Below are positions 16,019-41,731 of a stretch of 64,000 nt of DNA, piece by piece. Under the pieces are notes generated by a model. The model was not told the origin of the DNA. It ran no database searches and was given only the letters and a program-made list of their open reading frames with translations. How positions within the stretch are numbered: position 1 is the first letter of the stretch; every line of letters starts with the position of its first letter. Both the position numbers and the translations under genes were made by a program. This DNA is from a virus: positions 84,365 to 148,364 of the IMG/VR virus record IMGVR_UViG_3300032032_000001. The stretch is one strand, 5' to 3'.

Positions 16019-16197
16019 GTCTTTAGACTTTCGGAGTCAGTTTCATAGAACTCCGGCTTGATTTCTTCTTTTACAACTTCTCCGCCAAGAGCCTTGATAA
16101 CGGCGTCAGTGTACTGCTTACAGCCACCGCCTTTGATCCCGTTTACCTCGGTCTCGACAGACCCATCCTCATGGATGGTTACTCGCACTTCAACCAT
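16015..16197 (-). CDS. DUF2997 family protein
   Basis: 60 residues from the ATG at 16197, preceded by GGAGGTATTACA. The core VRVTIHEDGSVETEV followed by NGIKGGGCKQYTDAV is the hallmark of DUF2997: a short beta hairpin with I-x-x-D/N-G, a conserved Gly-Gly-x-Cys and a C-terminal helix. In bacteria and cyanobacteria such proteins sit next to DUF1257 and AAA+ genes, as here. The biochemical function is not established. The conserved Cys may be functionally important. Confidence 0.75.
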   Translation of the reverse strand: MVEVRVTIHEDGSVETEVNGIKGGGCKQYTDAVIKALGGEVVKEEIKPEFYETDSESLKT

Positions 16198-17041
16198 TGT
16201 AATACCTCCAGTATTTAGTGAAATTTTTCTCAATTTGTTCCGCTGCTTCAATATGCCCAGGACCAAGCGAGACCCCGTCGGGATCCCTCAAATATGACCC
16301 AGCCTGTTCGAGTATATTACTTGATAATAATACCCGCATTAACTCAAACCCACGGGAGAACCCCCGCTGGCTGAACAAGAACCCGCACGATTTACTGTTG
16401 GGTGGGCACACCATCGATCTGAATATATTGAATCTAACTCTTAGGTAGGCGAGAGACCCGTATTCATTTCTGGTCTTCTCGCGCTCGGTCCTTATCCGGA
16501 CAGAGCATAATCTGTTGATTGTTCCCTCAAGCGCTGAAGAAGGCTTAGGGACTAAATCTCGTACAGGAACCCTTAACTGGTTTACGACCAGGATTAAGGC
16601 TCCTCTTTTTAACGCTTCCTCTCTTAGAAAACTAAGGCCGTGGTATGCAGCCTTCCTCTCGGCGAAGGGGACACGTTCATCAACACCTAAGCGCTGATCG
16701 CACAGCGGCTCTGTGGAGGACAGGGAGTCTATAGTTATCACCATGGCCCCCTCATCAAGAAGGGTGTAAGCCGATTCTATAGCAGACTCCATGCTGTTTG
16801 GGATGACGGCTATTAGGTCCTTTGGACCAGCAGCCTGTATATACCCAGAGCTAGGGAAAGCCTCCGTATGGATAAGGGCGGTCGGGAGGCCCCCAACGGA
16901 GGCCTCCCTCATCACACTGAAACACAACGTAGATTTACCACTAGCGTCCTCCCCGATAACTTCACAGATACCGGGTGGTATTCCTCCAAGGAGCGCTTCA
17001 TCTAGTTGATAGATGCCAGTGCGATGCCGCCCATAACTCAA
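16190..17041 (-). CDS. RecA-fold recombinase-like ATPase
   Basis: 283 residues. N-terminal TGIYQLDEALLGGIPPG and Walker A GEDASGKST (about residues 29-37) match the RecA/RadB/KaiC core, and a Walker B-like VITIDSLSS follows near 100. ILVVNQLRVP (about 150) corresponds to the RecA motif with the sensor Asn-Gln. It is shorter than bacterial RecA (about 350) and lacks its C-terminal domain. Many large phages carry such UvsX/Sak4-like proteins for recombination and replication; this one is embedded with AAA+ and ParB genes and overlaps both neighbours. Confidence 0.8.
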   Translation of the reverse strand: MSYGRHRTGIYQLDEALLGGIPPGICEVIGEDASGKSTLCFSVMREASVGGLPTALIHTEAFPSSGYIQAAGPKDLIAVIPNSMESAIESAYTLLDEGAMVITIDSLSSTEPLCDQRLGVDERVPFAERKAAYHGLSFLREEALKRGALILVVNQLRVPVRDLVPKPSSALEGTINRLCSVRIRTEREKTRNEYGSLAYLRVRFNIFRSMVCPPNSKSCGFLFSQRGFSRGFELMRVLLSSNILEQAGSYLRDPDGVSLGPGHIEAAEQIEKNFTKYWRYYNG

Positions 17042-18642
17042 CTGTCGCCCTCTGCTTTTCGCAGTTCGTCCCAGCCGCTACCCTTGACACTTGTCACCTT
17101 AGCGGTGCGCCGTGATCTCTTGGGCTTCTTCTGCTTTGCTTGGGTTTCTTGAACTGTGTTAGCCAAGAGCGCTCTACCGTTTGCCCACTTGCGTAAGGCT
17201 TCGATCTTAGTACCCATTGTTGTTGACAGCGGGACTGTATTGGAAGCTGCGGTGACCATGTCATCACACTCCAGGTCTCTATTTTCAGCGAAAGCCTTGT
17301 ACATACCGTCCACAACAACCTGTTCAATTTCGGCACCCGTGAAGGAGTTGGTCTCCTCCGCCAGACGCTTAACGTCAAACTTGTCTGAGTCTCTACCCAG
17401 TCTGGATATGTGGATCTTGAACACTTCCTCGCGATCAACCTGTGAGGGTAGGTCTACGAAAAACAATTCGTCAAACCGGCCCTTTCGAAGCATCTCTGGC
17501 GGAAGCGCAGATACGTCATTAGCGGTAGCCACTACGAAGACCTGAGATGTCTTCTCAGACATCCAAGACAAGAAACTACCAAACACACGAGCAGATGTTC
17601 CACTGTCGTGTGACCCAGAAGCCGAACCAAAACCCTTTTCGATCTCATCGATCCAAAGGACACATGGTGAAATAGCTTCAGCGGTCTTGATAGCTTTCCT
17701 GAAATTGGCTTCAGACTGTCCAACATACTGGCCAAACAAGGCACCTACATCCATACGGAGTACGGGCATTTGCCAAGCCGAACCAATACACTTTGCAGTT
17801 AGTGATTTCCCTGTACCAGGGATACCAACAATGAGAACGCCTTTGGGGTGCGGGAGACCAAACTCCCTAGCCTCTTCAGAAAAAGCTCGACCACGCTGGT
17901 CCAACCATGTCTTAAGAGTATTCAAACCACCAACATCACCCATCGCCCGATCAACTTCATGGTACTGAAGCACGCCAGACTTGCGGATAATGTGCTTCTT
18001 CTCATCCAAAACAACGCGAGGCTCTATGCCCTCACACTTTGCTAAGGATTTCGAGAAGACGTTCTCTACTTCTGTAAGAGTTAAGCCTATAGCGGCTGAG
18101 CAACCCTCTTTGAGCATGTTATCTTTCTCTTCATCGGTTTTAGAATCCCCAAAGAAGTCTTCAATAATATGCCTGTTCCAGCGCTCTAGTTCAGATTCAT
18201 CAGGTAGATCAAAATCTACAACAGACATAATCTTCTCAAGCCGTGGGGGAACCTTTAGTTCGCTATCAATTATTACCACGGTAATACCGGGGTTCATTGT
18301 ATTGGCTAGATCCCTAAGCTTCCTCTGCACTGGATAACATGGACCCTCGTTGAGCCAGTAGCCGAAGTCCTTAAGAAGGAATACAGCTGACTGCTCATGC
18401 TCCCCGATTTTTTCGAGGATATCTAAAGGTGTCTCAACATCTGGGAAATGCTCGTTCCCACAGTATGCTCCCTCAGTGAAGCTCCACGTCCAAAGTGACG
18501 CGTTTGCTTCAGAGGATACGTTCTTTCTCTCAACGACACTTGCCAGTGCCTGCGCAACCCGATGCTCTTCGTGGCTAACCACATAGACCACCGGGTGCGC
18601 GGCTCTGACAAGAACGTCGAGTTCTTCGACGCTACGGTTCAC
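17038..18642 (-). CDS. Ycf46-like AAA+ ATPase
   Basis: 534 residues. A 200-residue N-terminal domain resembling the P-loop-like N-domain of Ycf46 precedes a classic AAA+ module. Walker A is GIPGTGKS near 273, the pore-loop region is FGQYVGQSEANFRKA, Walker B is CVLWIDEIEK near 330, sensor 1 is VVATAND, and the arginine-finger region is RKGRFDELFFVDLP. A helical lid and a basic Lys-rich C-terminus follow. Ycf46 proteins are FtsH-clade ATPases without a protease domain. Here the gene sits between ParB and RecA-like genes (4-bp and 1-bp overlaps), suggesting a remodelling machine acting with them. Confidence 0.85.
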   Translation of the reverse strand: MNRSVEELDVLVRAAHPVVYVVSHEEHRVAQALASVVERKNVSSEANASLWTWSFTEGAYCGNEHFPDVETPLDILEKIGEHEQSAVFLLKDFGYWLNEGPCYPVQRKLRDLANTMNPGITVVIIDSELKVPPRLEKIMSVVDFDLPDESELERWNRHIIEDFFGDSKTDEEKDNMLKEGCSAAIGLTLTEVENVFSKSLAKCEGIEPRVVLDEKKHIIRKSGVLQYHEVDRAMGDVGGLNTLKTWLDQRGRAFSEEAREFGLPHPKGVLIVGIPGTGKSLTAKCIGSAWQMPVLRMDVGALFGQYVGQSEANFRKAIKTAEAISPCVLWIDEIEKGFGSASGSHDSGTSARVFGSFLSWMSEKTSQVFVVATANDVSALPPEMLRKGRFDELFFVDLPSQVDREEVFKIHISRLGRDSDKFDVKRLAEETNSFTGAEIEQVVVDGMYKAFAENRDLECDDMVTAASNTVPLSTTMGTKIEALRKWANGRALLANTVQETQAKQKKPKRSRRTAKVTSVKGSGWDELRKAEGDS

Positions 18643-19535
18643 TATTCACCCATCCGAATGCGGCGTTTCCGCTTGACGGTTGGCTTCTTAGTTTCCTTTG
18701 AGACCTCAACCGCATCGGTTGCGTCAATAATATGCAGAAGGTCCTCTGTCTCAATTTCACAGAAGTACCAACGCACAACTCGGTCAACCGCTTCGCGGTA
18801 CTCCTTGTCGAGGTCAGCATTATCCTTTGCAAGGAACGTTCTAAGCTCTTCCATCTCCTTCTTGGAGCGGTAGGTCTTAGCTCGCTTACGCTGCTTCTCC
18901 TTGGGGACCTCATCAGCACCCTGGCCAAGCATGACCTCTAGGGCCTCATCCTGTCCCTTCTCGTTGGGATTACCGTCCTCGCGGACGATCTTCGACAACT
19001 GCTTCGCCTGGGTCATTGTGATTCGACCGTGACGAAGCGCCTCAAAGGATACAGTGCTCAAGCCTTTGTAGGTTGCGCAAAGAACGCTAACCTGTGGCTG
19101 TGAGATATTCAGCATACTGGCTACAGACTGTTGATTCCCAACGCGGTCATTAAGTCGATAAATCGACTCACAACGATCCGCGAAGTTCAGCGACTTCCTC
19201 TGTAGGTTTTCTGCAATGTTTAAGGCCAAGGCATCCTCAAGAGATCCTTCATGGACACCGCATTGGATGGTATCAAAGAAACCATCACCATCGTTTCCAC
19301 GAGAGTCTCTCTCCTCAAGGATTGCTTGAACCCTACGATAACCAGCGATCAGAAGAACTCTCTCATTGCCCTTGTCATCCTGAAGGATGTGGACAATAGG
19401 GGGGTTCATCAATCCATCGGAAATGATGGAAGATCGTAGGTCTCTGGTATCGCCCACATCAGAACGGCTGTTCTTGAATCCGAGCGTATTTCTCTCAATG
19501 TCTTCAATTTTGAATGACTTTTGCGCAAGTTGCAT
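18642..19535 (-). CDS. ParB-like DNA-binding protein
   Basis: 297 residues from the ATG at 19535, chosen for its AGGAGG site. The N-terminal ParB/sulfiredoxin-type domain contains IAGYRRVQA (ParB box II-like, GERRxRA). A helix-turn-helix follows (SVASMLNISQPQVSVL), then a KorB-like helical part and a basic C-terminal tail. ParB proteins bind centromere-like sites and many are CTP switches. No ParA is nearby. Three TGACA-N10-TGTCA sites lie just upstream and three more beyond the next gene, making this protein the leading candidate binder. Roles could be segregation, transcription control or nuclease activity. Confidence 0.8.
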   Translation of the reverse strand: MQLAQKSFKIEDIERNTLGFKNSRSDVGDTRDLRSSIISDGLMNPPIVHILQDDKGNERVLLIAGYRRVQAILEERDSRGNDGDGFFDTIQCGVHEGSLEDALALNIAENLQRKSLNFADRCESIYRLNDRVGNQQSVASMLNISQPQVSVLCATYKGLSTVSFEALRHGRITMTQAKQLSKIVREDGNPNEKGQDEALEVMLGQGADEVPKEKQRKRAKTYRSKKEMEELRTFLAKDNADLDKEYREAVDRVVRWYFCEIETEDLLHIIDATDAVEVSKETKKPTVKRKRRIRMGE

Positions 19536-19645
19536 TAGTTTCCTCCTATCTGCGTTGATAAGCGCACACACGTTACGAAAGTTTCCGGGCTGTAGTAGTC
19601 GGGATAAACCAGCCCATACTTATATCCACGTTTATTATTAATAAA

Positions 19646-19766: not shown

Positions 19767-20843
19767 CTATGTTTTCTTCCTCGGGGAAATGTTTCTTTTC
19801 CTCCGCTGATTAACACTCTCCTTAGCGACTGCGCCGCTAGAACCTGTATATAACTTTAGGGCAGCAGGATCTCCCTCCACTCTTACAGAGTCTGGGGTTA
19901 AGATTATCCTTATCCCCGTTAGGTTGATCACTAAATCCTCCCCGTACCCTGAGCATTTTGTCAAGGCTGGGAACCACTGCCTAAGTTGTCCAATTTCATA
20001 TTGCAGGGTGCCTACGTGTGCAGGCTTAGTTGTTGGTGACTCTTGTTTAGAGTCTACCCTGAATCTATGTATCGCCTCTCTTTCAAAGCGTGTGTAGTTT
20101 ATACCTGTCAGTCTGGATACAGTCTGACTCACTCTCTCTGCTTCAGAGTTAGCTCTTACTGAGTCAGTCTTTCTACCGACTTCTTTTTCCAGAGCTAACG
20201 TCAGTCTCACAAGATCAGCACTTCTTCTCTTAATGTCCTCTGCTTGTTCTCTGAACCATGCAAATTCCTTAAGAGCATCATCTAGCTTATCCTGAGTATC
20301 TAACTTGTAGTCAGTAGTTCCACTACATCTTTCTTCTCTCATATCGTGTATTTTACGAATTAATTCTTCCGATTCCAATACAAGTGTTTCCTGATCAGAA
20401 AGTAACTTTCCTAAGTCTACTTCGTCTTTTTCAACAGTACCACCTAACATCTCTACTCTAGAATTAAATATAGAGAAGTCAGTTTTACTGAGAGAAAAGT
20501 TCTGTAGGCAAGATCTAGGTTTTGCTACCAGTACTTGAGGGATACTTCTACCTATATAGGGTCTTTGACTTCTGTAAGAAGCTAACCCTAAAACAAGTGT
20601 AGCTGTTTCAGCATCCATTACTCTGTAAGGCATGGATACTTGGACATGGTCGTTCTCAGTTAATTTCCAGAGATACACATGTCCCTTCTCTATAGGGGTA
20701 AGGTCATCATCGTAAAAAGCTATCTCTTCAGGATCAGCTGGGTCACAGAATAAGTTCTGCGAGTACTCAGAGGTACGTTTTGTGATGAGACCTTTGATTA
20801 GTATAGGTGGGTTTGCCCTATCGTTCACAAACCGTAATTCCAT
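19767..20843 (-). CDS. Coiled-coil protein between two operator arrays, unknown
   Basis: 358 residues. The N-terminal 110 residues look beta-rich (MELRFVNDRANPPILIKGL; VSMPYRVMDAETATLVLG), the middle (about 125-230) is a charged helical coiled coil, and the C-terminus is a mixed domain ending in a strongly basic RRKRNISPRKKT tail that may bind nucleic acid. No family is recognised. It is a single-gene unit with operator arrays on both sides, suggesting tight control together with ParB. Start preceded by AAGGAGAC. Confidence 0.75.
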   Translation of the reverse strand: MELRFVNDRANPPILIKGLITKRTSEYSQNLFCDPADPEEIAFYDDDLTPIEKGHVYLWKLTENDHVQVSMPYRVMDAETATLVLGLASYRSQRPYIGRSIPQVLVAKPRSCLQNFSLSKTDFSIFNSRVEMLGGTVEKDEVDLGKLLSDQETLVLESEELIRKIHDMREERCSGTTDYKLDTQDKLDDALKEFAWFREQAEDIKRRSADLVRLTLALEKEVGRKTDSVRANSEAERVSQTVSRLTGINYTRFEREAIHRFRVDSKQESPTTKPAHVGTLQYEIGQLRQWFPALTKCSGYGEDLVINLTGIRIILTPDSVRVEGDPAALKLYTGSSGAVAKESVNQRRKRNISPRKKT

Positions 20844-21089: not shown

Positions 21090-21833
21090 CTACTTCTGAG
21101 CGGCTGCCTGTCGTCCCTTACGCGCCTTACGAACACGCTTGAACTTCAGTCCAGCAGACTTCATCAGGTGGACGTGAGCCTCGGTTAGAGCCGAAGTCAA
21201 AGCGATCTCATCGCTCTCACCATCCCATTCACCCTCAGTCGCCTTAGCGTACGTGGGCTGCACGTACCTTGAGATCGCCTTAGGCACATCCACTTCGAAC
21301 CTCAGACCGCGAGATGCAGCCAAGTTGACAACGAACGCCTTGACGCCAAGAAGGGCGTACAGGTTCCGATCCTCAGGGGTGATATCCCCCTCAGACACGG
21401 ACAGTCCGGTGTCACGCTCAAGCGTGGACTTCAACTCCTGCCAGCGGTCTAGCCCCTGAAGGATGATTGCGCCGGAGATTGCCTTGCTAACGAAGTTCTT
21501 TCGACCTTCGAACAGCTGCTCTCTCGTAGGCTTCACAGTGCCCTTACCCCAACCACCTTGAACGATAAAGTTCAAAGCAGCAGTTCCCGTAAAGAAACCG
21601 TTGGTCTCCAGGGTTAGTGCAAACTTGCAACGCTTTCCTCCAGAAGACACAGGGGTGCCAACATAGAGGATAGAACCATCCTCACGGGTCTGCTTCATCA
21701 GATCCGTAGAGGTTGTGGCCCCAGACGGTGCCTCGTGCTCGACAGTGATAACGTCGGGCGCTCGTTGTGGGTCAACCAGACCGCACATAGGGAGTCCTGT
21801 GGACCAGGACTTTTTCTTGTCAAAACCGCTCAT
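21090..21833 (-). CDS. Unknown protein closing the ubiquitin-like cassette
   Basis: 247 residues from the ATG at 21833 (AAGGAGG site). Mixed alpha/beta sequence with Gly-rich loops (GFFTGTAALNFIVQGGWGKG) and a strongly basic C-terminal 20 residues (KRVRKARKGRQAAAQK), which may contact nucleic acid. No family is recognised. It follows the E1-like gene by 42 bases on the same strand and is ended by a strong terminator, so it may belong to the conjugation operon as a target, adaptor or single-stranded DNA-binding-type protein. These roles are guesses. Confidence 0.7.
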   Translation of the reverse strand: MSGFDKKKSWSTGLPMCGLVDPQRAPDVITVEHEAPSGATTSTDLMKQTREDGSILYVGTPVSSGGKRCKFALTLETNGFFTGTAALNFIVQGGWGKGTVKPTREQLFEGRKNFVSKAISGAIILQGLDRWQELKSTLERDTGLSVSEGDITPEDRNLYALLGVKAFVVNLAASRGLRFEVDVPKAISRYVQPTYAKATEGEWDGESDEIALTSALTEAHVHLMKSAGLKFKRVRKARKGRQAAAQK

Positions 21834-21875
21834 AATAGCCTCCTTCACATATGTGATTGTTTTTTTTACGGTTGC

Positions 21876-22553
21876 CTAATTGGCTACAGTTGTGATGACT
21901 TGATTCATAAAGATATTAGCGAAATCAATTTCCGCAGAATCAAAACGAATCTCCTCACCGATAATACTCTTTGCAAGCAAGGAGCAGATGATCGAAGATA
22001 AGCCGTACGCACAGAAGACCGTCGCCTTCTCAGTACAGGGGAGCGCTACCGCTTCATCATCGGAGAACAAGCTTGCCTCGTACTTTTCGATAGACTTACG
22101 GTTAGACTTGTCTACAAAGAAGACTTGCCCAAACCGTGCGGCCATCCGGCCATCGATAAAGTATCTGGAAGATGTACTCATGAGGAAAGATTCAAATATG
22201 GCCTTTCGAGAAGCCATATTATCCACAGCAGAAACTACGTACACTTCGTCAAACTTGTGTCCGTCCTCTACCCTTTTGTCCTCAGCAATGATTTCAGCAC
22301 CAGTGCCTTCTGTAAGACGCTTAGCTATTGCTTCACATTTCTTATACCCGATTTCAGGTATGAAATAGCCTTGATTGGCTAGGTTATGCATCTCCACCGT
22401 GTCATCATCGAAGACCCGAATTTTGCGCACACCCATCTTAGTCATAGCCTCCGCAGTATGGGAGCCAATAGCCCCCACACCCACAACAGCTACCGTAGTA
22501 TTATTAATGAGTTCGTCAGGAATGATTCCACTCTGCCTTGTTGTATCAATCAT
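21876..22553 (-). CDS. E1-like ubiquitin-activating (ThiF-family) enzyme
   Basis: 225 residues. Rossmann ATP-binding motif VVGVGAIGSH (residues 24-32), acidic strand end VFDDDTVEMHNLANQ (48-61) and VSAVDNMASR (108-116) are the adenylation signatures of ThiF/MoeB/E1 enzymes. C173 in LPCTEKAT is a good candidate for the thioester-forming Cys. No CxxC zinc pairs are present, and the protein is a minimal adenylation domain. In bacteria such E1 proteins activate the C-terminal glycine of ubiquitin-like modifiers and hand them to E2 proteins. Its gene overlaps the JAMM peptidase gene by eight bases. Confidence 0.88.
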   Translation of the reverse strand: MIDTTRQSGIIPDELINNTTVAVVGVGAIGSHTAEAMTKMGVRKIRVFDDDTVEMHNLANQGYFIPEIGYKKCEAIAKRLTEGTGAEIIAEDKRVEDGHKFDEVYVVSAVDNMASRKAIFESFLMSTSSRYFIDGRMAARFGQVFFVDKSNRKSIEKYEASLFSDDEAVALPCTEKATVFCAYGLSSIICSLLAKSIIGEEIRFDSAEIDFANIFMNQVITTVAN

Positions 22554-23547
22554 CTAATTCCTCCTTTTTCTCATCCTCATCCTCTTGCGCCATATAGGCC
22601 TCATAATCAGAACCATCGTCGTCTTTAGTTGGGGTAACCAACTCTTCGACATCTACACCGTGCACAAGCTCAAGCTCCTGCAAGAGTTCTTCTTTTGAGA
22701 TCTCTTGCGCGTAGAACTTGGTGTAAAGCTCCATGGCATCATTGGCTCCGATATCATTTCCATCGTAAGCCTTCTGTAGCTCAGGAAGCTCAAAGGGGAA
22801 GTCGAGGGCCTCAATAACCTCCTCAACCTTTCCAGCAGCATCATATGCACCATGGACTCCTCCCATAGCCCAATCCGTATCGTCGTCCATTGCCCAGGAT
22901 GTGTCGTAAACCTGACCACCAGTACCGATGCGGGTATACCCACTACCGGTGTACCAACTCTTTGTTTTTGCGGCGGGAGCCTTAGTCACACTGATACGCT
23001 CGGCGCGGAAGGTTGCCTTCTCTACATACTTCTCAATAATGTCTTCCGCCCAGCCATCTGGGAGGATGTCAATTTGATCAACAGCATATGAGCACTTCTC
23101 AAACGAGTACCGAATAGGTGACATCATGTCGATTCTCAGATTGAGATCACCCTTCTTATTGGTGATCACAGAGATACACACCGAATCAAAATCAAACTTC
23201 TCAATTTGACTCTCATCAGTACCGCTGTGTCCCGTGTCCATGTTTACGTGACTATGCCACCAAACAACAATCTGCTCAGACTTGATCCCCTTCTCCCGTA
23301 GGTCGAAAGTTAGATCCACAAGAGCTTCGTCATCTAGAACAGTGGATGTCCCAGAGCACAACTGCTTAACAGGGAAGAACTCTGTTACGTAGAAGTCTTC
23401 ACCGACTCCCGCGTCATCCTTTTCTTCTTCGGTGGCGATGATTCCCATCGCACTTATTTCAATGTCACATTTATTTGTTAGTCTAAACATTTGCTGGTAG
23501 GCCTTCTGGGAAAACCTAACCGTCGGCTTGCTGAGTACTTTCATCAA
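22546..23547 (-). CDS. JAMM/JAB-family metallopeptidase (deubiquitinase-like)
   Basis: 333 residues. The JAMM zinc motif is complete: E30 in CDIEISAMGII, then HSHVNMDTGHSGTD with H98, H100, S108 and D111 (HxH-x7-S-x2-D). This family cleaves after the terminal glycine of ubiquitin-like proteins, either to mature the precursor or to remove conjugates. Residues 190-250 are Gly/Tyr/Asp-rich and probably flexible; about 260-305 is a helical bundle; the end is highly acidic. It overlaps both the E1-like and E2-like genes, so the three enzymes are co-translated. Confidence 0.9.
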   Translation of the reverse strand: MMKVLSKPTVRFSQKAYQQMFRLTNKCDIEISAMGIIATEEEKDDAGVGEDFYVTEFFPVKQLCSGTSTVLDDEALVDLTFDLREKGIKSEQIVVWWHSHVNMDTGHSGTDESQIEKFDFDSVCISVITNKKGDLNLRIDMMSPIRYSFEKCSYAVDQIDILPDGWAEDIIEKYVEKATFRAERISVTKAPAAKTKSWYTGSGYTRIGTGGQVYDTSWAMDDDTDWAMGGVHGAYDAAGKVEEVIEALDFPFELPELQKAYDGNDIGANDAMELYTKFYAQEISKEELLQELELVHGVDVEELVTPTKDDDGSDYEAYMAQEDEDEKKEELDD

Positions 23548-24610
23548 TAACTCCTAGTTTCTGTATTTGGGTAACTGCCGCTTTAGCGACATCAATAAAT
23601 TCTACAAATTCACCCAAAACACAGGACCCCTTAGAGAGTCCCGGGTGGGAGTTTCGATGCCAGCGCATACATTCAGATGCACTCATTCCACAGTCCTCAA
23701 CAGGACCAGTACTTTCACAGCCACACTTGTCTATCCAAAGACCCTTCCCACATGCACAGAGCTTGTGGTCCCAGCGATTCGCTATGCCAAACTTATGTAG
23801 TCGCGCATACGGATCGACGTGGTTGTATGTGATTAAATATTCTGTGGTTGTTACTATTACGTTAGCGATGTCTTTGTTCTTCATGTGCTGAAGAAGCATC
23901 CTCTGAACGTTCCCCAAGCAGGGACTACCATCTGTTTGGATATGCGGATGGGAGTACGATGAGAAGCTGATATTGTTACCCGCTTGTCGGAACGAGGCTG
24001 TAACGCCCTGAAAACCATTCGCTTGGTAAGTGTAACGGATCTCTACCTTGAACTTACCAAAGACCTGATCAAGGAAGCCTCCGAAGCCATCCTTCAGCTT
24101 AATTGTGTTTGTTGTCCACGATAGAATTGAGACCCCGCTTATGGGATCCTCAACATAGTTTACCGGGACGCGCTTATCTATAAACGAGTCAACTGACTTA
24201 AGCATGAACGCTCTATTAGAGAGCGAGGACTCATCGTATAGATCATCAAAATTCGACAGAAACGAATTCTTAGAATGAATCTCCGCAGACAGGTTACGCT
24301 GCTCATCAGCTAACTGGCTAACACGGGACGACTTATCCAGGTACTTACGCCTTGCAATCTCACTTCTTGACTTGGCCGCCATGTAATCAGAGTACTTCTG
24401 GATCTCACGGCTTTTCTGTTTTTCATATATTCTTTGCCGAGCGGCAGCCTTTGCTTCAACAGCTTCTTGACTCTTCACTACTTGTGCGAGCCTCTTACCA
24501 AGACGCTCACTGTCTTCACGTGCGGATGAAGCGGCAGACTCTACAATACTGTCTAGATCTTTTATTAATGTCTCATCTTCGGCACACAGCCGAATAGAAA
24601 ATGCGTTCAT
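23516..24610 (-). CDS. E2-like ubiquitin-conjugating protein with coiled coil and Cys-rich tail
   Basis: 364 residues. Residues 15-115 form a long charged coiled coil. Residues 150-260 carry UBC-like features: strands, then HPHIQTDGSPCLGN with H221-P222 and C231, matching the HPN...CL arrangement of E2 enzymes with C231 as probable thioester cysteine. Residues 282-330 hold CAC, CGC, two further Cys and two His (C285, C287, C296, C298, C307, C314, H318, H322), suggesting a zinc-binding module. E2 enzymes take the modifier from E1 and transfer it to targets. An N-terminal coiled coil and a C-terminal Cys cluster are unusual additions. Confidence 0.75.
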   Translation of the reverse strand: MNAFSIRLCAEDETLIKDLDSIVESAASSAREDSERLGKRLAQVVKSQEAVEAKAAARQRIYEKQKSREIQKYSDYMAAKSRSEIARRKYLDKSSRVSQLADEQRNLSAEIHSKNSFLSNFDDLYDESSLSNRAFMLKSVDSFIDKRVPVNYVEDPISGVSILSWTTNTIKLKDGFGGFLDQVFGKFKVEIRYTYQANGFQGVTASFRQAGNNISFSSYSHPHIQTDGSPCLGNVQRMLLQHMKNKDIANVIVTTTEYLITYNHVDPYARLHKFGIANRWDHKLCACGKGLWIDKCGCESTGPVEDCGMSASECMRWHRNSHPGLSKGSCVLGEFVEFIDVAKAAVTQIQKLGVIDESTQQADG

Positions 24611-24630
24611 TCCACACCTCCATGGGTTCC

Positions 24631-24663
24631 AAAAAAAAGGGGGAGGACAAAAGCCCTCCCCCC
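24631..24663 (-). terminator. Intrinsic terminator between modifier and E2-like gene
   Basis: On the minus strand GGGGGGAGGGC and its complement form a perfect G/C stem with a small loop, followed by eight T. It lies 21 bases after the modifier stop and 21 bases before the E2-like start. It would reduce read-through so the modifier transcript outnumbers enzyme transcripts. Confidence 0.85.
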
Positions 24664-24683
24664 AGAATTATTAACAAGTAATA

Positions 24684-25136
24684 CTAGATTCCACCGGCAA
24701 CCTTTTGTGCGATGAAAATCTCGTGCTCACCCGGACCAACTGCTTGGGACAGGTCAGTAATCTCTACGGTCTGCCCAGGGCCAACACGACGTTTAAAAGT
24801 AACGTCATCAGTTGACCAGCTCAGGGAGTGCATAAGGTCGGCAACAGAAGTGTGCGCCGGAACCTCTACACACCGATCACTCTTACCGCTGCGGATTAAC
24901 GAAACAACACAGAATTCTGCGTCGCCCTTAGCCTCGGAGGACATGCTAGACGCCGCTTCCTTAGCTTCGGCCTCCTCTAACGCCGATGTCTTAGTGGCTA
25001 CCATTTTCTGCAAAGCGGAAAGCTTATCCATAGCGGGTTGACTAAAGTTCTCAGCAAGCTCTTTGTATTGAGCGTCACGCTGTGTGGTGGTTTCTTCTAG
25101 GTCCGTTTTCAGACGGGCCAGATTATCATTTGCCAT
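24684..25136 (-). CDS. Ubiquitin-like beta-grasp modifier with C-terminal Gly-Gly-Ile
   Basis: 150 residues. Residues 1-65 form a charged helix or coiled coil. Residues 72-150 read as a beta-grasp fold: strand FCVVSLIRSG, strand CVEVPAHTSV, the helix VADLMHSLSW, then strands VTFKRRVGPG and HEIFIAQKVAGGI. It ends with G148-G149-I150, one residue after the di-glycine, so removal of Ile by the adjacent JAMM peptidase would expose Gly-Gly for activation. The gene has a strong AAGGAG site, overlaps the gene before it by 11 bases, and is followed by a terminator. No sequence identity to a specific named family can be claimed by eye. Confidence 0.75.
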   Translation of the reverse strand: MANDNLARLKTDLEETTTQRDAQYKELAENFSQPAMDKLSALQKMVATKTSALEEAEAKEAASSMSSEAKGDAEFCVVSLIRSGKSDRCVEVPAHTSVADLMHSLSWSTDDVTFKRRVGPGQTVEITDLSQAVGPGEHEIFIAQKVAGGI

Positions 25137-25485
25137 TAGGCGTCTCCTTTTCCCACAGGAACTGTGGAAATGTTTTTGTTATTTCTTTTGTAATAGATTC
25201 CGGTGTCTCACCAGACCACATAACCACAGAGGACTCCCCTGCGTTTATCCTAGTAGCCCCGCCCCCTGGTTCTGGGTTTGCGGACTCGGACCTGTTGGTA
25301 GTTGTTGCCGAAGCTGTATATCCAAGCCTATCCAACAGCTCTCCCTCAACTTTAGGCTCAGGCCCAAAGTAAAGAGTCACAGTCCAATTCTTGAATTCTG
25401 TAGTTTTGACAGTTCTCTGTTTTCCAAGCGCCGCCGCTATATTATGGGGCGTTGGATGATCGGGGATATTCTCGTCCGATTTCAT
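25126..25485 (-). CDS. Unknown protein coupled to the modifier gene
   Basis: 119 residues from the ATG at 25485 (GGAG site). It contains two strand-rich segments (TEFKNWTVTLYFG; GESSVVMWSGETPESITKEI) separated by a flexible Asn/Ser/Gly linker. Its stop overlaps the modifier start by 11 bases, so both are translated together. It does not end in Gly-Gly and I see no clear beta-grasp. It may be a chaperone, substrate or regulator of the pathway; unknown. Confidence 0.65.
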   Translation of the reverse strand: MKSDENIPDHPTPHNIAAALGKQRTVKTTEFKNWTVTLYFGPEPKVEGELLDRLGYTASATTTNRSESANPEPGGGATRINAGESSVVMWSGETPESITKEITKTFPQFLWEKETPNGK

Positions 25486-25538
25486 CAATTCTCCACTAAT
25501 TCCCGACTACTGAGAAAGTGTGGATCTCCCAAGGTGTG

Positions 25539-26162
25539 TCAGATTGGGAGGGGTTTTCGTTTATGCTCCCTCTTGAGGAACCTAATCGCACGCAGAACGG
25601 CTCGTTGATACCTAGCCGGTCTACTACATTTACGGACGCACTTGTCGAAGAACTCTTTGTCCTCGATAGCCCCGCATCTATTTTTTTCGATACACTGGTT
25701 CATCCGGACCTTCCAGCCCTGACCTCCGTTGTAACAAGCGTAGGCGTTCCTACCTCTACACTGCTTGTAGTTATTTCTGAATAAGAGCAGTATACGAATA
25801 CCAGCCTTCACATTGACCGGTATATGTAACATTTCCTTTTCACAATTAACTACACCAAACTCTCTCTTGAGTCTCTTGCGGTGTATGCGACAGTTGACCT
25901 GTATAACCCCATAATCTCCCGTATGGCTTACAGCCCTAGGGGTGAGATTGGATTCAACAATACCTATGGCGAGGATCTCAAACGGATCAACCCCATCAGG
26001 GATGTGCTTTACGATTTCTTTCACAACCAGACGCTGCCTATCAGACAGCTTCTTCGGAGGCTTTCTACCAGACCCACTATAGTTCTGGGCGTACGCCAGA
26101 CTACAGGTGATCATAAGAAAAAAAGTAATTAAAGAAACAACCAGACGTAGTTTAGATCTCAT
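25539..26162 (-). CDS. Exported lytic transglycosylase-like (SLT) protein
   Basis: 207 residues from the ATG at 26162, placed by GGAGA. A signal peptide of about 25 residues (LRLVVSLITFFLMITCSLAYA) is followed by a basic linker and an SLT/lysozyme-like domain. EILAIGIVESNLTPRAVSHTGDYGVIQVN contains the catalytic Glu in IVESNL and the conserved G-x-x-QVN part. The C-terminal half is Cys-rich and basic, which may form disulfides. The enzyme would cut peptidoglycan from outside the cytoplasm. It may act at entry or lysis; the main endolysin is at 47.2 kb. Confidence 0.8.
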   Translation of the reverse strand: MRSKLRLVVSLITFFLMITCSLAYAQNYSGSGRKPPKKLSDRQRLVVKEIVKHIPDGVDPFEILAIGIVESNLTPRAVSHTGDYGVIQVNCRIHRKRLKREFGVVNCEKEMLHIPVNVKAGIRILLLFRNNYKQCRGRNAYACYNGGQGWKVRMNQCIEKNRCGAIEDKEFFDKCVRKCSRPARYQRAVLRAIRFLKREHKRKPLPI

Positions 26163-26196
26163 TTCAAAAATCTCCGCGCTAATAATTATACTCCAC

Positions 26197-26240
26197 ACAA
26201 GCAGGGGGGCGACATATTACACGCCACCACCCCTACTTGT
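26197..26240 (-). terminator. Strong hairpin after candidate RNA
   Basis: ACAAG-TAGGGG...CCCCTG-CTTGT with an inner GGCG/CGCC forms a long stem with a four-base bulge. It separates the non-coding region from the transglycosylase gene. No long T-run follows, so termination is uncertain; a TATAAT-type element reading leftward just after it (about 26185-26192) could restart transcription. Confidence 0.5.
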
Positions 26241-33543: not shown

Positions 33544-35523
33544 CTAAATGACACAGGTGTCCCCATCACAAAACTTTTCGGTAACCTCATGCCTTGAATT
33601 GCTGAAGTCAATGTCGGTTGTTTGTGATGTCATAGTTTCATATTGATCTTTTGTGATCTCAATATACGGAGCCTGGACGTACCCATGGTCACCATCCATC
33701 AAAGGAAGAAGAGACACAGACTTTAGCCTAGTCTCATAAATCTCTAGACATGTCTTAATGTCCTGAGACTCATCTTTCTTAAACGTCACAGTGATGCTTA
33801 CCTGATTGTCGGCCCAATGCTTCTGAAGGTCCCCCGCGTTCGCGAACTGCTCCCAGATGGTTACATCAGACTTACCCTTTTGGTAGTGCTCTTCTTTAAC
33901 CGGGAAGCTGATACATGATGTGTCCGACGCGTAAGCGTCTTTCTCAACAAGGTACCCAGCCTTCGCCGCAGCGTCTACAAGCGGCGACGTGTTCGCCACC
34001 CGAATATTTCTTATGTAATACTCGCTGTGTGGGTAGTGAATTCCCGGACTTGCGCCACACAGAAGACTAACCGTACCACTAGGCTTAACGCTCGTGACCT
34101 TGATTGATCTGGGGATACATAACCACTCGCTATACATCCTATCCAGATCTCGTATAAATCCATACCCGGAGTCGCACCACTTAAGGAACTCTCTCCGACC
34201 ATGCTTGTTCATCGCTTGGACGATGCCACTCATAGAACACCCGATTCTCCGATTCCGCATCATTACAGCGTTTGTTCTAGGATCGTGTGTGGGAAGCAGC
34301 GTAACCGTTTTGGCGTACAGGTACGCAAACTTGAGGGTTCTCTGGTAGTCTTCAAGATCCTCATGGTGCGCGGGAAAGGTTTCAACAAGACAACAAAGCT
34401 CGAAGGACTCAAGCGTCTGTTCCGAGCAAGGGTTGCTACCCATAGCTCTAACATCGTAGTTGTTCTTGTTTCCGTCCATTCTTCGGTAGTGCTGCATGTT
34501 ATCCAACCAGATAACCCCAGGCTCCCCGTTCACAGCAATCGACTCGGCAATCGACTCGTAGTCCATCCCGATATGCCCGAACACGGAGTTGTTTGAGGCC
34601 CACCGGCGGTCACGAAGAGCTTCCTCGTCCTGCTTCAGGGTCACAAACTCTTGGTCAGTCGCTTCCCCAAACATGATCTCAGCAGTTCTACGGATACCAC
34701 CACTTACGACGCACTTACCTACAAAGTTGAAAATATCAACAATGACCGAGCTTGTAATCTTATAAGACTCCCCATTCCTAGGCATCAGGAGTGCGGACAG
34801 GTTATCTACCAGATCCACCAACGGCTGCGGGCCAGAGGCCACACCGCCGAACCCGTTGATCTTAGCCCCACGGGGCCTGACCTTAGAGTAGTCGATATTC
34901 TTTGGGTAGTAGCCTTTTCCAACGAAGCTATAAAGAATCACTTTAGCAAGCTCAACCCAACCCTCCCTTGAATCATCCACAACGTAGGGCTCGTCGGAAA
35001 ACCGAGGCACCTGTATTCTAACCTTACCAGCGCCCTTACAGTCACCACCGACACCCACTCCCAGCATGGACATGTCCATAAGGAATGTGAACGGCGCAGC
35101 AAAGTCTACGTCAATTTCTTCCGTGCTAACGAAAGCACAGTTATTTAGTGCGGCTGACCCCTTGGTCATCACCATATCTGTTCCCATGACCCACAGGCCC
35201 CTTCCGGGCGGGAGCCACTTAAATCCCCACATGCGCTCAAACATCTCCTGGGCGCTCTTCTGAGCCTTGGGCTCATTCCATGGAAGCCGCAAAGACCTAC
35301 AGTGTAATTTCTGGACGTTATACACGCCCTCGACTACTCTCTTACATGTTTGCCAGAACTCTTCAGTGCCCCCTTCTTCAAGAGGCCTTGCATATGTACG
35401 TTTGAATGTGAAATAACCCAGAGGGCCCCATTTGGGCTGCTCCCCCATGTAGTCCTCAATAAAAGATGAACTGAGGGTGAAAATTCTCACCTTCCTCTCA
35501 TCAGGCTGCTGATTAAATACCAT
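33544..35523 (-). CDS. Adenosylcobalamin-dependent ribonucleoside-triphosphate reductase (class II)
   Basis: 659 residues, start behind AAGGAGGAGC. It reduces ribonucleotides to deoxyribonucleotides for phage DNA synthesis with coenzyme B12, needing no iron partner. Signatures: NNCAFVSTEEI near 127-137 (redox Cys), the Gly-rich MLGVGVGGDC, the active-site NPCSEQTLESFELCC near 364-378 (Asn, Cys, Glu), and PSGTVSLLCGASPGIHYPHS near 487-505. The C-terminal CDGDTC pair could serve as the swinging dithiol. Length fits the monomeric Lactobacillus leichmannii type (about 740 residues), somewhat shorter. A single-gene unit between a terminator and a shared upstream region. Confidence 0.92.
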   Translation of the reverse strand: MVFNQQPDERKVRIFTLSSSFIEDYMGEQPKWGPLGYFTFKRTYARPLEEGGTEEFWQTCKRVVEGVYNVQKLHCRSLRLPWNEPKAQKSAQEMFERMWGFKWLPPGRGLWVMGTDMVMTKGSAALNNCAFVSTEEIDVDFAAPFTFLMDMSMLGVGVGGDCKGAGKVRIQVPRFSDEPYVVDDSREGWVELAKVILYSFVGKGYYPKNIDYSKVRPRGAKINGFGGVASGPQPLVDLVDNLSALLMPRNGESYKITSSVIVDIFNFVGKCVVSGGIRRTAEIMFGEATDQEFVTLKQDEEALRDRRWASNNSVFGHIGMDYESIAESIAVNGEPGVIWLDNMQHYRRMDGNKNNYDVRAMGSNPCSEQTLESFELCCLVETFPAHHEDLEDYQRTLKFAYLYAKTVTLLPTHDPRTNAVMMRNRRIGCSMSGIVQAMNKHGRREFLKWCDSGYGFIRDLDRMYSEWLCIPRSIKVTSVKPSGTVSLLCGASPGIHYPHSEYYIRNIRVANTSPLVDAAAKAGYLVEKDAYASDTSCISFPVKEEHYQKGKSDVTIWEQFANAGDLQKHWADNQVSITVTFKKDESQDIKTCLEIYETRLKSVSLLPLMDGDHGYVQAPYIEITKDQYETMTSQTTDIDFSNSRHEVTEKFCDGDTCVI

Positions 35524-40204: not shown

Positions 40205-41731
40205 TTAGATAGCAACCGCTTTATCTACGGAGTCAATAGCTAGGTACTCAATGAGATCCCTAAGCTCTTCCACCGTGTACGGCTTACCTTTTGTTCCACG
40301 GCTGTGGATGTATTTATGGCATTCGTAACAGACTGGCACCAGATCCTTAACTGGATCCACTACGTGCTCCACGCCGTTGCGGGAATGGATGGGGTTGACG
40401 TGATGAACCTGTAGGTATCTTTCGACCAAGCTTCCCAATTTATGGTGCTCCCCCGGAGCATAGTCACAGACCTGACAAACAAACCCGTAATGGTCTAAGC
40501 AGGCTGCTCTCGCCTTTGGGTCTCGTTCGTAACTGGTCAACTTGACTTCCTTAGCCTTACCCTCTTTGAAGATGTAGTTAGCTAAGAGCCTGTGCTTCTC
40601 TTCACATGCCATCGTGAAACCGTACTCATGTGCACCCTCGTACGCAGGCTCTGCGTCCGGATTACAAAGGGTAGGTTTCACCCAGCGTGTGATCAAAGAC
40701 CTAATAGGCTTATCGTCGTAAACAGAGCTTTGCCAGTTCTCGTAAGGGATTACTTCGCCGACTAAGTCGTGACCGGATGGGTACTTCTTAGGACCAGTCC
40801 AGAATCGGTGTTCGTGCCCACGACGCCACCGCCGTTTCTTCTCCCACGTAAATCCCTCTACTTCTGTGATTTCTGACTCTTCACGCTCACCAACATACGT
40901 AACACTTCTTGGGCTAACCCTATTAAGCATGGTTTTGTAGATACGGGCTTTCTTACTGTTGGGCTTTTTACAGCGCCTGAGCTTGCCCTTCCACTTCCTA
41001 CGCTCATTGATACCAGTAATATCCTCTCGAACACTGGGGTCCTCGGTTTGCAGATACATAAGCATCGAAGCAAACACTCGGTAAATAGACATGAAGGTTT
41101 TACCGTTCTCTATGTTTCTCGCATCAGAAAGCTCCGCTCCAGGAGAGGAAGCATTTCTGGCAGGCTCGGAACACACAAAGTTAACGTAGTCACCAACACA
41201 CTCAAAATCCCTGAAGCAAGTCACCAGATTCATCTTAAGGAAGAACTTTGACCCAAACTCCCCATCCCTTCCCTCTGCGTGAAGAAATAGGATGAGATTG
41301 TCTACATCTTTATCGGATTTATTATCCCTTAATACGTAGAACCCTGAGATTGGGTAGTAGCACTCGTCGTATAAACTCCACAGGCTCCAACCGCATTTTC
41401 TCAGGTTAACGTAGAAGCATGGGAACGGGAGCTTCTCAAGCTCCTCCATCCCAACCTTGCTTATGTCGGTAGCCTCTAGCTTTTCCTGCATAATCTTGGG
41501 GAGGCAGAAAACCTGCTGACCCCACTTGTTGTAGTCGAGCATACAATGGATCTCATTCTTAAAGACCTCATCGTATGGACCACTCATAAATTCGGACGCT
41601 AACCAGTCGGCGACGCTGCCATTACCCATACCGGCTTTGCCGATGTGCGTGGCAACCATCAGACCCTTTGCGGTGTCTGGGTTTATATCTATTAACCAAT
41701 CATAGTGTGGTGTCGGGTATGTGGGATCCAT
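40205..41731 (-). CDS. AcrVA2-like anti-CRISPR domain fused to a C-terminal HNH endonuclease
   Basis: 508 residues. The first about 370 residues follow the AcrVA2 pattern: WGQQVFCLPKIMQEKLE near 71-87, then LPFPCFYVNL near 101-110, and a C-terminal RRGHEHRFWTGPKK near 303-316 with RWVKPTLCNP near 350-359. AcrVA2 in Moraxella has RRGHWHGYW and an RWxPAxFVN end and blocks type V-A CRISPR by lowering Cas12a. Residues 395-490 form an HNH nuclease: CQVC near 423, LQVHHVNPIHSRNG near 442-455 with the catalytic His, and VCYECHKYIHS near 470-480. The fusion of both parts in one gene is unusual. It overlaps the next gene by one base. Confidence 0.7.
   Translation of the reverse strand: MDPTYPTPHYDWLIDINPDTAKGLMVATHIGKAGMGNGSVADWLASEFMSGPYDEVFKNEIHCMLDYNKWGQQVFCLPKIMQEKLEATDISKVGMEELEKLPFPCFYVNLRKCGWSLWSLYDECYYPISGFYVLRDNKSDKDVDNLILFLHAEGRDGEFGSKFFLKMNLVTCFRDFECVGDYVNFVCSEPARNASSPGAELSDARNIENGKTFMSIYRVFASMLMYLQTEDPSVREDITGINERRKWKGKLRRCKKPNSKKARIYKTMLNRVSPRSVTYVGEREESEITEVEGFTWEKKRRWRRGHEHRFWTGPKKYPSGHDLVGEVIPYENWQSSVYDDKPIRSLITRWVKPTLCNPDAEPAYEGAHEYGFTMACEEKHRLLANYIFKEGKAKEVKLTSYERDPKARAACLDHYGFVCQVCDYAPGEHHKLGSLVERYLQVHHVNPIHSRNGVEHVVDPVKDLVPVCYECHKYIHSRGTKGKPYTVEELRDLIEYLAIDSVDKAVAI

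Follow-up and report, generated by a model that had tools for sequence, protein, structure and literature searches.

Conjugation of ubiquitin-like (Ubl) proteins in prokaryotes is presently discussed mainly as a form of bacterial defence against phages. The bacterial ISG15-like (BIL) system, BilABCD, is an antiphage operon consisting of a Ubl protein, an E2, a deubiquitinase (DUB) and an E1, in which the modifier BilA carries two ubiquitin-like domains (PMC11354881). On plasmids, the ParB-related, ThiF-related cassette (PRTRC) is similar to the type 6d operons described by Iyer et al. 2006 (PMC1779556), and in phages themselves a Ub-like protein and a JAB peptidase are found in the tail assembly proteins TAPI and TAPK of lambda (PMC1779556). 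Here, we analyse a 64,000-base stretch of a marine virus of bacteria (hereafter the window; bases 84365-148364 of the 148,364-base IMG/VR virus record IMGVR_UViG_3300032032_000001), which encodes a candidate modifier, an E2-like protein, a JAMM peptidase and an E1-like protein side by side. Our analysis suggests a prokaryotic Ubl conjugation cassette that is distinct from BIL, from PRTRC and from CBASS (cyclic oligonucleotide-based antiphage signaling system), the comparison with BIL being by description only. We propose that the phage probably encodes a reversible Ubl-conjugation cascade whose likeliest targets are phage or host proteins of replication, recombination or segregation. The cascade part of this reading is well supported; the individual reaction steps and the co-expression of the genes we infer.

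Components of the cassette

The four cassette genes, in order of transcription, are as follows.

24684..25136, minus strand: predicted ubiquitin-like modifier, 150 residues, with a helical hairpin (2-69), a beta-grasp domain (75-144) and the C-terminus KVAGG-I
23516..24610, minus strand: E2-like conjugating protein, 364 residues, with a coiled coil (12-124), a ubiquitin-conjugating (UBC)-like core (~127-275) and a Cys/His-rich C-terminus (285-330)
22546..23547, minus strand: putative JAMM/Prok-JAB metallopeptidase, 333 residues, with its likely start at ATG 23544
21876..22553, minus strand: E1-like ThiF-family adenylyltransferase, 225 residues, with GVGAIG and the candidate thioester residue Cys173

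The JAMM gene overlaps the E2 gene, and the E1 gene the JAMM gene, by a few bases, and the gap between modifier and E2 is 73 bases. Shine-Dalgarno-like sequences lie upstream of all four genes, and for the JAMM gene the ATG, preceded by AGGAG, is a likelier start than the TTG at 23547. A sequence-only reading of this DNA had described these open reading frames (ORFs) as a phage-borne modifier/E2-like/JAMM/E1-like cassette. All four are present on the minus strand, with GVGAIG, Cys173, E30/H98/H100/D111, HPH, Cys231 and KVAGGI all seen, and the description holds for each component and for the operon as a whole. Two tests set in advance, a beta-grasp fold for the modifier and conservation of Cys231 in the E2, also came out in its favour, as described below.

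A profile of 29 modifier homologues matches SAMP2 (6.1e-8) and ubiquitin (2.1e-7) among solved structures, and also MoaD and ThiS. The AlphaFold2 model (pLDDT, the predicted local distance difference test, of 88) consists of the hairpin and a single beta-grasp (Ubl) domain, and ubiquitin-like domains, including SUMO2 and a Caldiarchaeum ubiquitin-Rpn11 complex, make up nearly all of its top matches (probability 1.00) in a Foldseek search of the PDB. Profile, model and structural search thus agree in showing a beta-grasp as the predicted fold. Among the homologues, the second Gly of the GG is nearly invariant, and the tail after it ranges from 0 to about 20 residues (I, NAC, F, RQ, IH or none), a pattern that fits a precursor trimmed by a peptidase. 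The modifier is therefore predicted to combine a beta-grasp with an exposed or processable C-terminal GG.

In the E2-like protein, HPH221-223, Cys231 and Gly233 are invariant across 17 core sequences, and in alignment the HPH...G..CLG of the window falls on the HPN...G..CL of eukaryotic E2s. Searched against the PDB, its profile yields 33 matches at E<=0.1 (best 0.0043), every one an E2 enzyme or E2 variant. The model shows a 110-residue coiled coil followed by a helix, strands and two helices, and a UBC fold for the core is likely. Beyond the core stand Cys285, 287, 296, 298, 307, 314 and 330 together with His318 and 322, and this C-terminus may possibly form a zinc site. Neither a pattern search of viral contigs with the E2 alone nor a tblastn search of phages with it returned anything, because the E2 diverges fast; its relatives were reached via the E1.

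The E1 matches Pfam ThiF at 8.2e-22, and its best solved relative is UBA5 (6.8e-9). Asp49, Lys72, Asp111 and Arg116 are present in 100/100 of its homologues and Cys173 in 98/100, so that the putative enzyme carries both an adenylation motif and a conserved cysteine. Likewise, E30, H98, H100, S108 and D111 of the predicted peptidase, which spell the JAMM motif E...HxHx7SxxD, are invariant across 16 homologues.

Conservation in related phages

The cassette lies in a series of ten minus-strand genes running from 25488 to 16190 with small gaps or overlaps, which we regard as one putative operon. The other six members are listed below.

25126..25488, minus strand: conserved 120-residue protein, function unassigned, overlapping the start of the modifier gene
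21090..21848, minus strand: conserved 252-residue protein (P252), function unassigned, directly after the E1
19767..20843, minus strand: conserved 358-residue protein (P358), function unassigned
18642..19571, minus strand: ParB-like protein (NCBIfam parB_part 2.2e-9, phrog_4715 6.8e-14)
17038..18642, minus strand: CDC48/PAN-like AAA+ ATPase of phrog_8638 (Pfam AAA 1.4e-30, NCBIfam CDC48 8.5e-32, phrog_8638 1.4e-142)
16190..17041, minus strand: RecA-like recombinase (Pfam RecA 1.2e-11, UvsX-like phrog_97 2.2e-13)

L001, L002, L009, L010 (and near-copies of L010) and L014 carry all ten genes in this order, and L013, which is cut at its 5' end, carries the remainder. P252, P358, ParB and RecA occupy the same place in 7/7 members of this clade, and the order and motifs of the four cassette genes are preserved in sister phages L001, L002, L009, L010 and L014. 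The 120-residue protein is restricted to the clade, where it stands immediately upstream of the modifier; it has no family match in scans of Pfam, NCBIfam and PHROGs, and P252 and P358 have no Pfam match. The cassette genes are under purifying selection: modifier and E1 each have a ratio of nonsynonymous to synonymous change (pN/pS) of ~0.12 between the window and L001, against 0.36 in JAMM and 0.45 in E2; synonymous sites are close to saturated in this comparison. We take the clade to consist of tailed phages because a terminase large subunit is present in 4/5 sister records examined; the record that holds the window is possibly a fragment, and none was found in it.

Directly upstream of the operon is a gene for a transglycosylase SLT-domain protein (25539-26198), which most of the clade retains. 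Elsewhere, the window contains four minus-strand tRNA genes between 29521 and 32130 (Arg-TCT, Lys-TTT, Leu-TAA and Ile-TAT), a class II (B12-dependent) ribonucleotide reductase on the minus strand (33544-35523) and a protein with a C-terminal HNH endonuclease domain (40205-41731).

Distribution among phages and bacteria

Scanning viral contigs with the E1 alignment gave 178 relatives, from which 80 loci were kept. Linkage was counted in 57 distinct IMG/VR phage loci with enough flanking sequence, for genes within 4 kb and on the same strand. A JAMM-motif gene lies near the E1 in 54/57 phage loci, an E2-motif gene in 46/57 and both in 43/57. Among 1,050 ORFs away from the E1, the JAMM motif occurs 0 times and the E2 motif 2 times, which rules out chance occurrence. 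The sequence-only reading had considered a complete set within a phage unusual; these counts, along with cultured carriers, show otherwise.

The cassettes fall into several types. Besides the window clade, one type has modifiers of 65-100 residues ending VKGG-x and the E2 motif HPH...CWG, and L027 and L034 represent a minimal type. Cassettes of the crAss-like type have HSH...C[LT]G, and extra sequence follows their modifier-like domain. In a further type, the E2 bears 31-52 cysteines in CxxC arrays. In this last type (L067:6978-8297, L042:7865-9163, L039:8120-9172 and L076:7800-8855), a long CxxC array follows the HPH...C core and resembles built-in zinc-finger or RING-type modules; the E2 of a Xanthomonas phage (L006:5217-7895) has a similarly Cys-rich end. 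Profile homology of the crAss-type E2 to that of the window was rejected, as the match is to the short motif alone at 21% probability (6.5% for the modifier). Since the profile match is too weak, the assignment of crAss-type E2 and modifier rests on motif and gene position.

Cultured carriers, identified by annotation and motif, are the gut phage crAss001 (Gp79-76), Flavobacterium phage Fpv1 (gp58-53) and Xanthomonas phage PhiXhv-12. The E1 of crAss001 is annotated as 'thiamine biosynthesis protein'. In PhiXhv-12, the candidate modifier ends SGG, and no JAMM gene was found in the stretch viewed. The JAMM gene of Fpv1 (L174:3719-6011) is split: gp56 is the N-terminal part, gp54 begins LIHSHNTMQVFFSGTD, and the two are separated by an endonuclease gene, gp55, on the opposite strand. 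The split possibly reflects an intron or a homing-endonuclease insertion.

Contigs binned as bacterial (Myxococcales, Methylomirabilota, Saccharibacteria and others) carry related cassettes too, and some of these are possibly proviral. Three Saccharibacteria bins (L117, L121, L122) have E1 and JAMM genes. In L117 and L121, these adjoin the gene for a coiled-coil protein that is anchored in the membrane and carries a GFCFGS motif; it may be a cellular E2 of this kind. In the literature, mostly exclusive of subscription papers, we found no description of phage Ubl cassettes like these, nor of a link between crAss-like phages and ubiquitin.

Gene neighbourhood

We surveyed 150 proteins around 30 diverse cassettes. 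Exonuclease VIII, Holliday junction resolvases, AAA+ ATPases, helicases, RNA ligase, Sak4, ParB and ribonucleotide reductase head the annotated families by frequency, and the 25 most frequent include no virion family. In crAss001, the cassette is flanked by a primase and, one gene beyond, a uracil-DNA glycosylase. A search for a family B DNA polymerase gave no match. The neighbours suggest a role in replication, recombination or segregation. The sequence-only reading had left the target as a virion, host or replication protein; with replication, recombination and nucleotide genes as neighbours, the replication option is favoured and the virion option is not.

A link between the cassette and an AAA+ unfoldase is suggestive. 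Orthologues of the phrog_8638-type AAA+ adjoin the E1 in L040, L042, L055 and L067, and a Clp-type AAA+ adjoins the cassettes of L027 and L034. An obligate partnership is ruled out, since the phrog_8638 type is also present in mycobacteriophages that show no E1 in the stretch viewed and is not found near most other cassettes. ParB, P252 and P358 were likewise ruled out as general partners, being confined to the window clade.

Proposed function and alternatives

In the cascade that we propose, the JAMM peptidase would trim the residue or residues after the Gly-Gly of the modifier, and the E1 would adenylate the exposed Gly-Gly end and may load the modifier on Cys173. Cys231 of the E2, whose core is flanked by the coiled coil and by a Cys/His-rich tail that may bind zinc, would then accept the modifier, which the E2 would pass to lysines of target proteins. 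The JAMM peptidase could also remove conjugated modifier. Replication, recombination or segregation proteins would be the likeliest targets because the cassette shares its operon with ParB, AAA+ and RecA genes.

Several observations weigh against this reading. Sulfur carriers are among the modifier's nearest known relatives in the profile search, and the Pfam Prok-JAB match of the JAMM protein is sub-threshold (E 0.012). For the E2, the profile matches that support a UBC fold have E-values of 0.004-0.1, and support is weak in the Foldseek comparison of the full model, where the best matches, to Cdc34, reach an E-value of only 0.035 with template modelling (TM) scores of ~0.2-0.36. Gene neighbourhood, moreover, cannot identify a substrate, and it is weak evidence for targets because phage replication modules are large.

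A much broader hypothesis, which we consider unlikely as it stands, is that many tailed phages, including crAss-like phages, control their own DNA replication by a Ubl tag, in some cases paired with an AAA+ unfoldase, a CDC48-like one in the window clade and the Cys-rich class and a Clp-like one in L027/L034. This would be a viral counterpart of eukaryotic ubiquitin/SUMO-Cdc48 replication control, in which the long CxxC arrays of some E2s would act like built-in E3 modules. A large and divergent family of complete cassettes in phages themselves, beside replication and recombination genes, would alter the antiphage-defence picture, and the cultured carriers crAss001, Fpv1 and PhiXhv-12 make Ubl tagging by phages directly testable.

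Could the modifier instead be a sulfur carrier similar to ThiS, MoaD or SAMP2, with a thiocarboxylate that donates sulfur to, for example, tRNA thiolation? The matches of its profile to SAMP2, MoaD and ThiS, a bacterial relative (L100) that exceeds the Pfam ThiS cut-off, the ThiF-like E1 and the four tRNA genes in the window are consistent with this. However, most loci also encode a JAMM peptidase and an E2-like protein whose Cys is invariant, no rhodanese was seen, the window E1 sequence has no CxxC zinc motif, and sulfur or cofactor genes are not among the neighbours, all of which make a sulfur carrier improbable.

We consider it just as improbable that the cassette is a carried defence, a BIL- or CBASS-like conjugation system directed against competing phages. 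Its composition and order equal those of BilABCD (Ubl, E2, DUB, E1; PMC11354881), and its E1 matches the CBASS E1-E2 models of PADLOC. Yet the E1 alone matches defence models, and membership of CBASS or BIL by profile was ruled out: the window E2 and JAMM match no PADLOC defence model, and the only defence match of the modifier is a coincidental one to a Cas3g model (0.0035) over the modifier's own coiled coil. Apart from that match, E2 and modifier go unrecognized by Pfam, NCBIfam, PHROGs and PADLOC. Moreover, the modifier has one Ubl domain where BilA has two, no nucleotidyltransferase (CD-NTase) match was found among the operon proteins, and throughout the clade the cassette is fixed in one and the same operon, not in a variable cargo locus.

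About as improbable is counter-defence, with the modifier or JAMM jamming or stripping a host Ubl-based defence (CBASS Cap2/Cap3, BIL or Bub). Bacteria have such systems (PMC10097602, PMC13373217), and the faster evolution of E2 and JAMM than of E1 and modifier could reflect host conflict. However, a decoy would not need an entire cascade in which the catalytic residues of E1 and E2 are conserved, and the operon is shared clade-wide with replication genes.

Comparison with known systems

The resemblance to BIL lies in the presence of modifier, E2, JAB/JAMM and E1 in one operon, in an order that matches A to D. The differences are that the window modifier pairs its one Ubl domain with a helical N-terminus, found across its clade, in place of the two domains described for BilA, and that the window cassette is phage-borne and sits in a replication-type operon.

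Membership of PRTRC was suggested by the E1 profile rank, the ParB gene and the gene order. The E1s are akin (hhalign 99.2%), 13/13 plasmid tblastn matches are PRTRC ThiF, the order C-F-B-A-ThiF parallels modifier-E2-JAMM-E1, and a ParB gene is linked in both, although the window ParB match is generic and its gene is downstream, not upstream, of the cassette. Nevertheless, E2, modifier and score cut-off rule membership out: hhalign gives 3% for the E2 and 0.3% for the modifier, which is no match, and the window E1 scores only 63.4 bits against a cut-off of 144.75 bits for TIGR03736 (PRTRC ThiF). In addition, PRTRC-B is without HPH, PRTRC-C ends KG or similar, and the E1 tree separates the group of the window clade (100/99) from that of the PRTRC E1s (100/100).

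With type II CBASS, the cassette shares an E1 adenylation domain that matches the PADLOC E1-E2 models at 2.3e-14. Type II CBASS uses an E1-E2 fusion, Cap2, and a Cap3 JAB, whereas in the window E1 and E2 are separate genes and there is a dedicated modifier. The archaeal SAMP2/UbaA system is similar in its short E1, and among solved structures SAMP2 matches the modifier profile best. No E2 is known from SAMP systems, whereas the window cassette includes an E2-like gene. Finally, lambda TAPI/TAPK is likewise a phage-encoded pairing of a Ub-like protein with a JAB peptidase, but it has neither E1 nor E2 and lies among tail genes, whereas the window cassette lies among genes of replication type.

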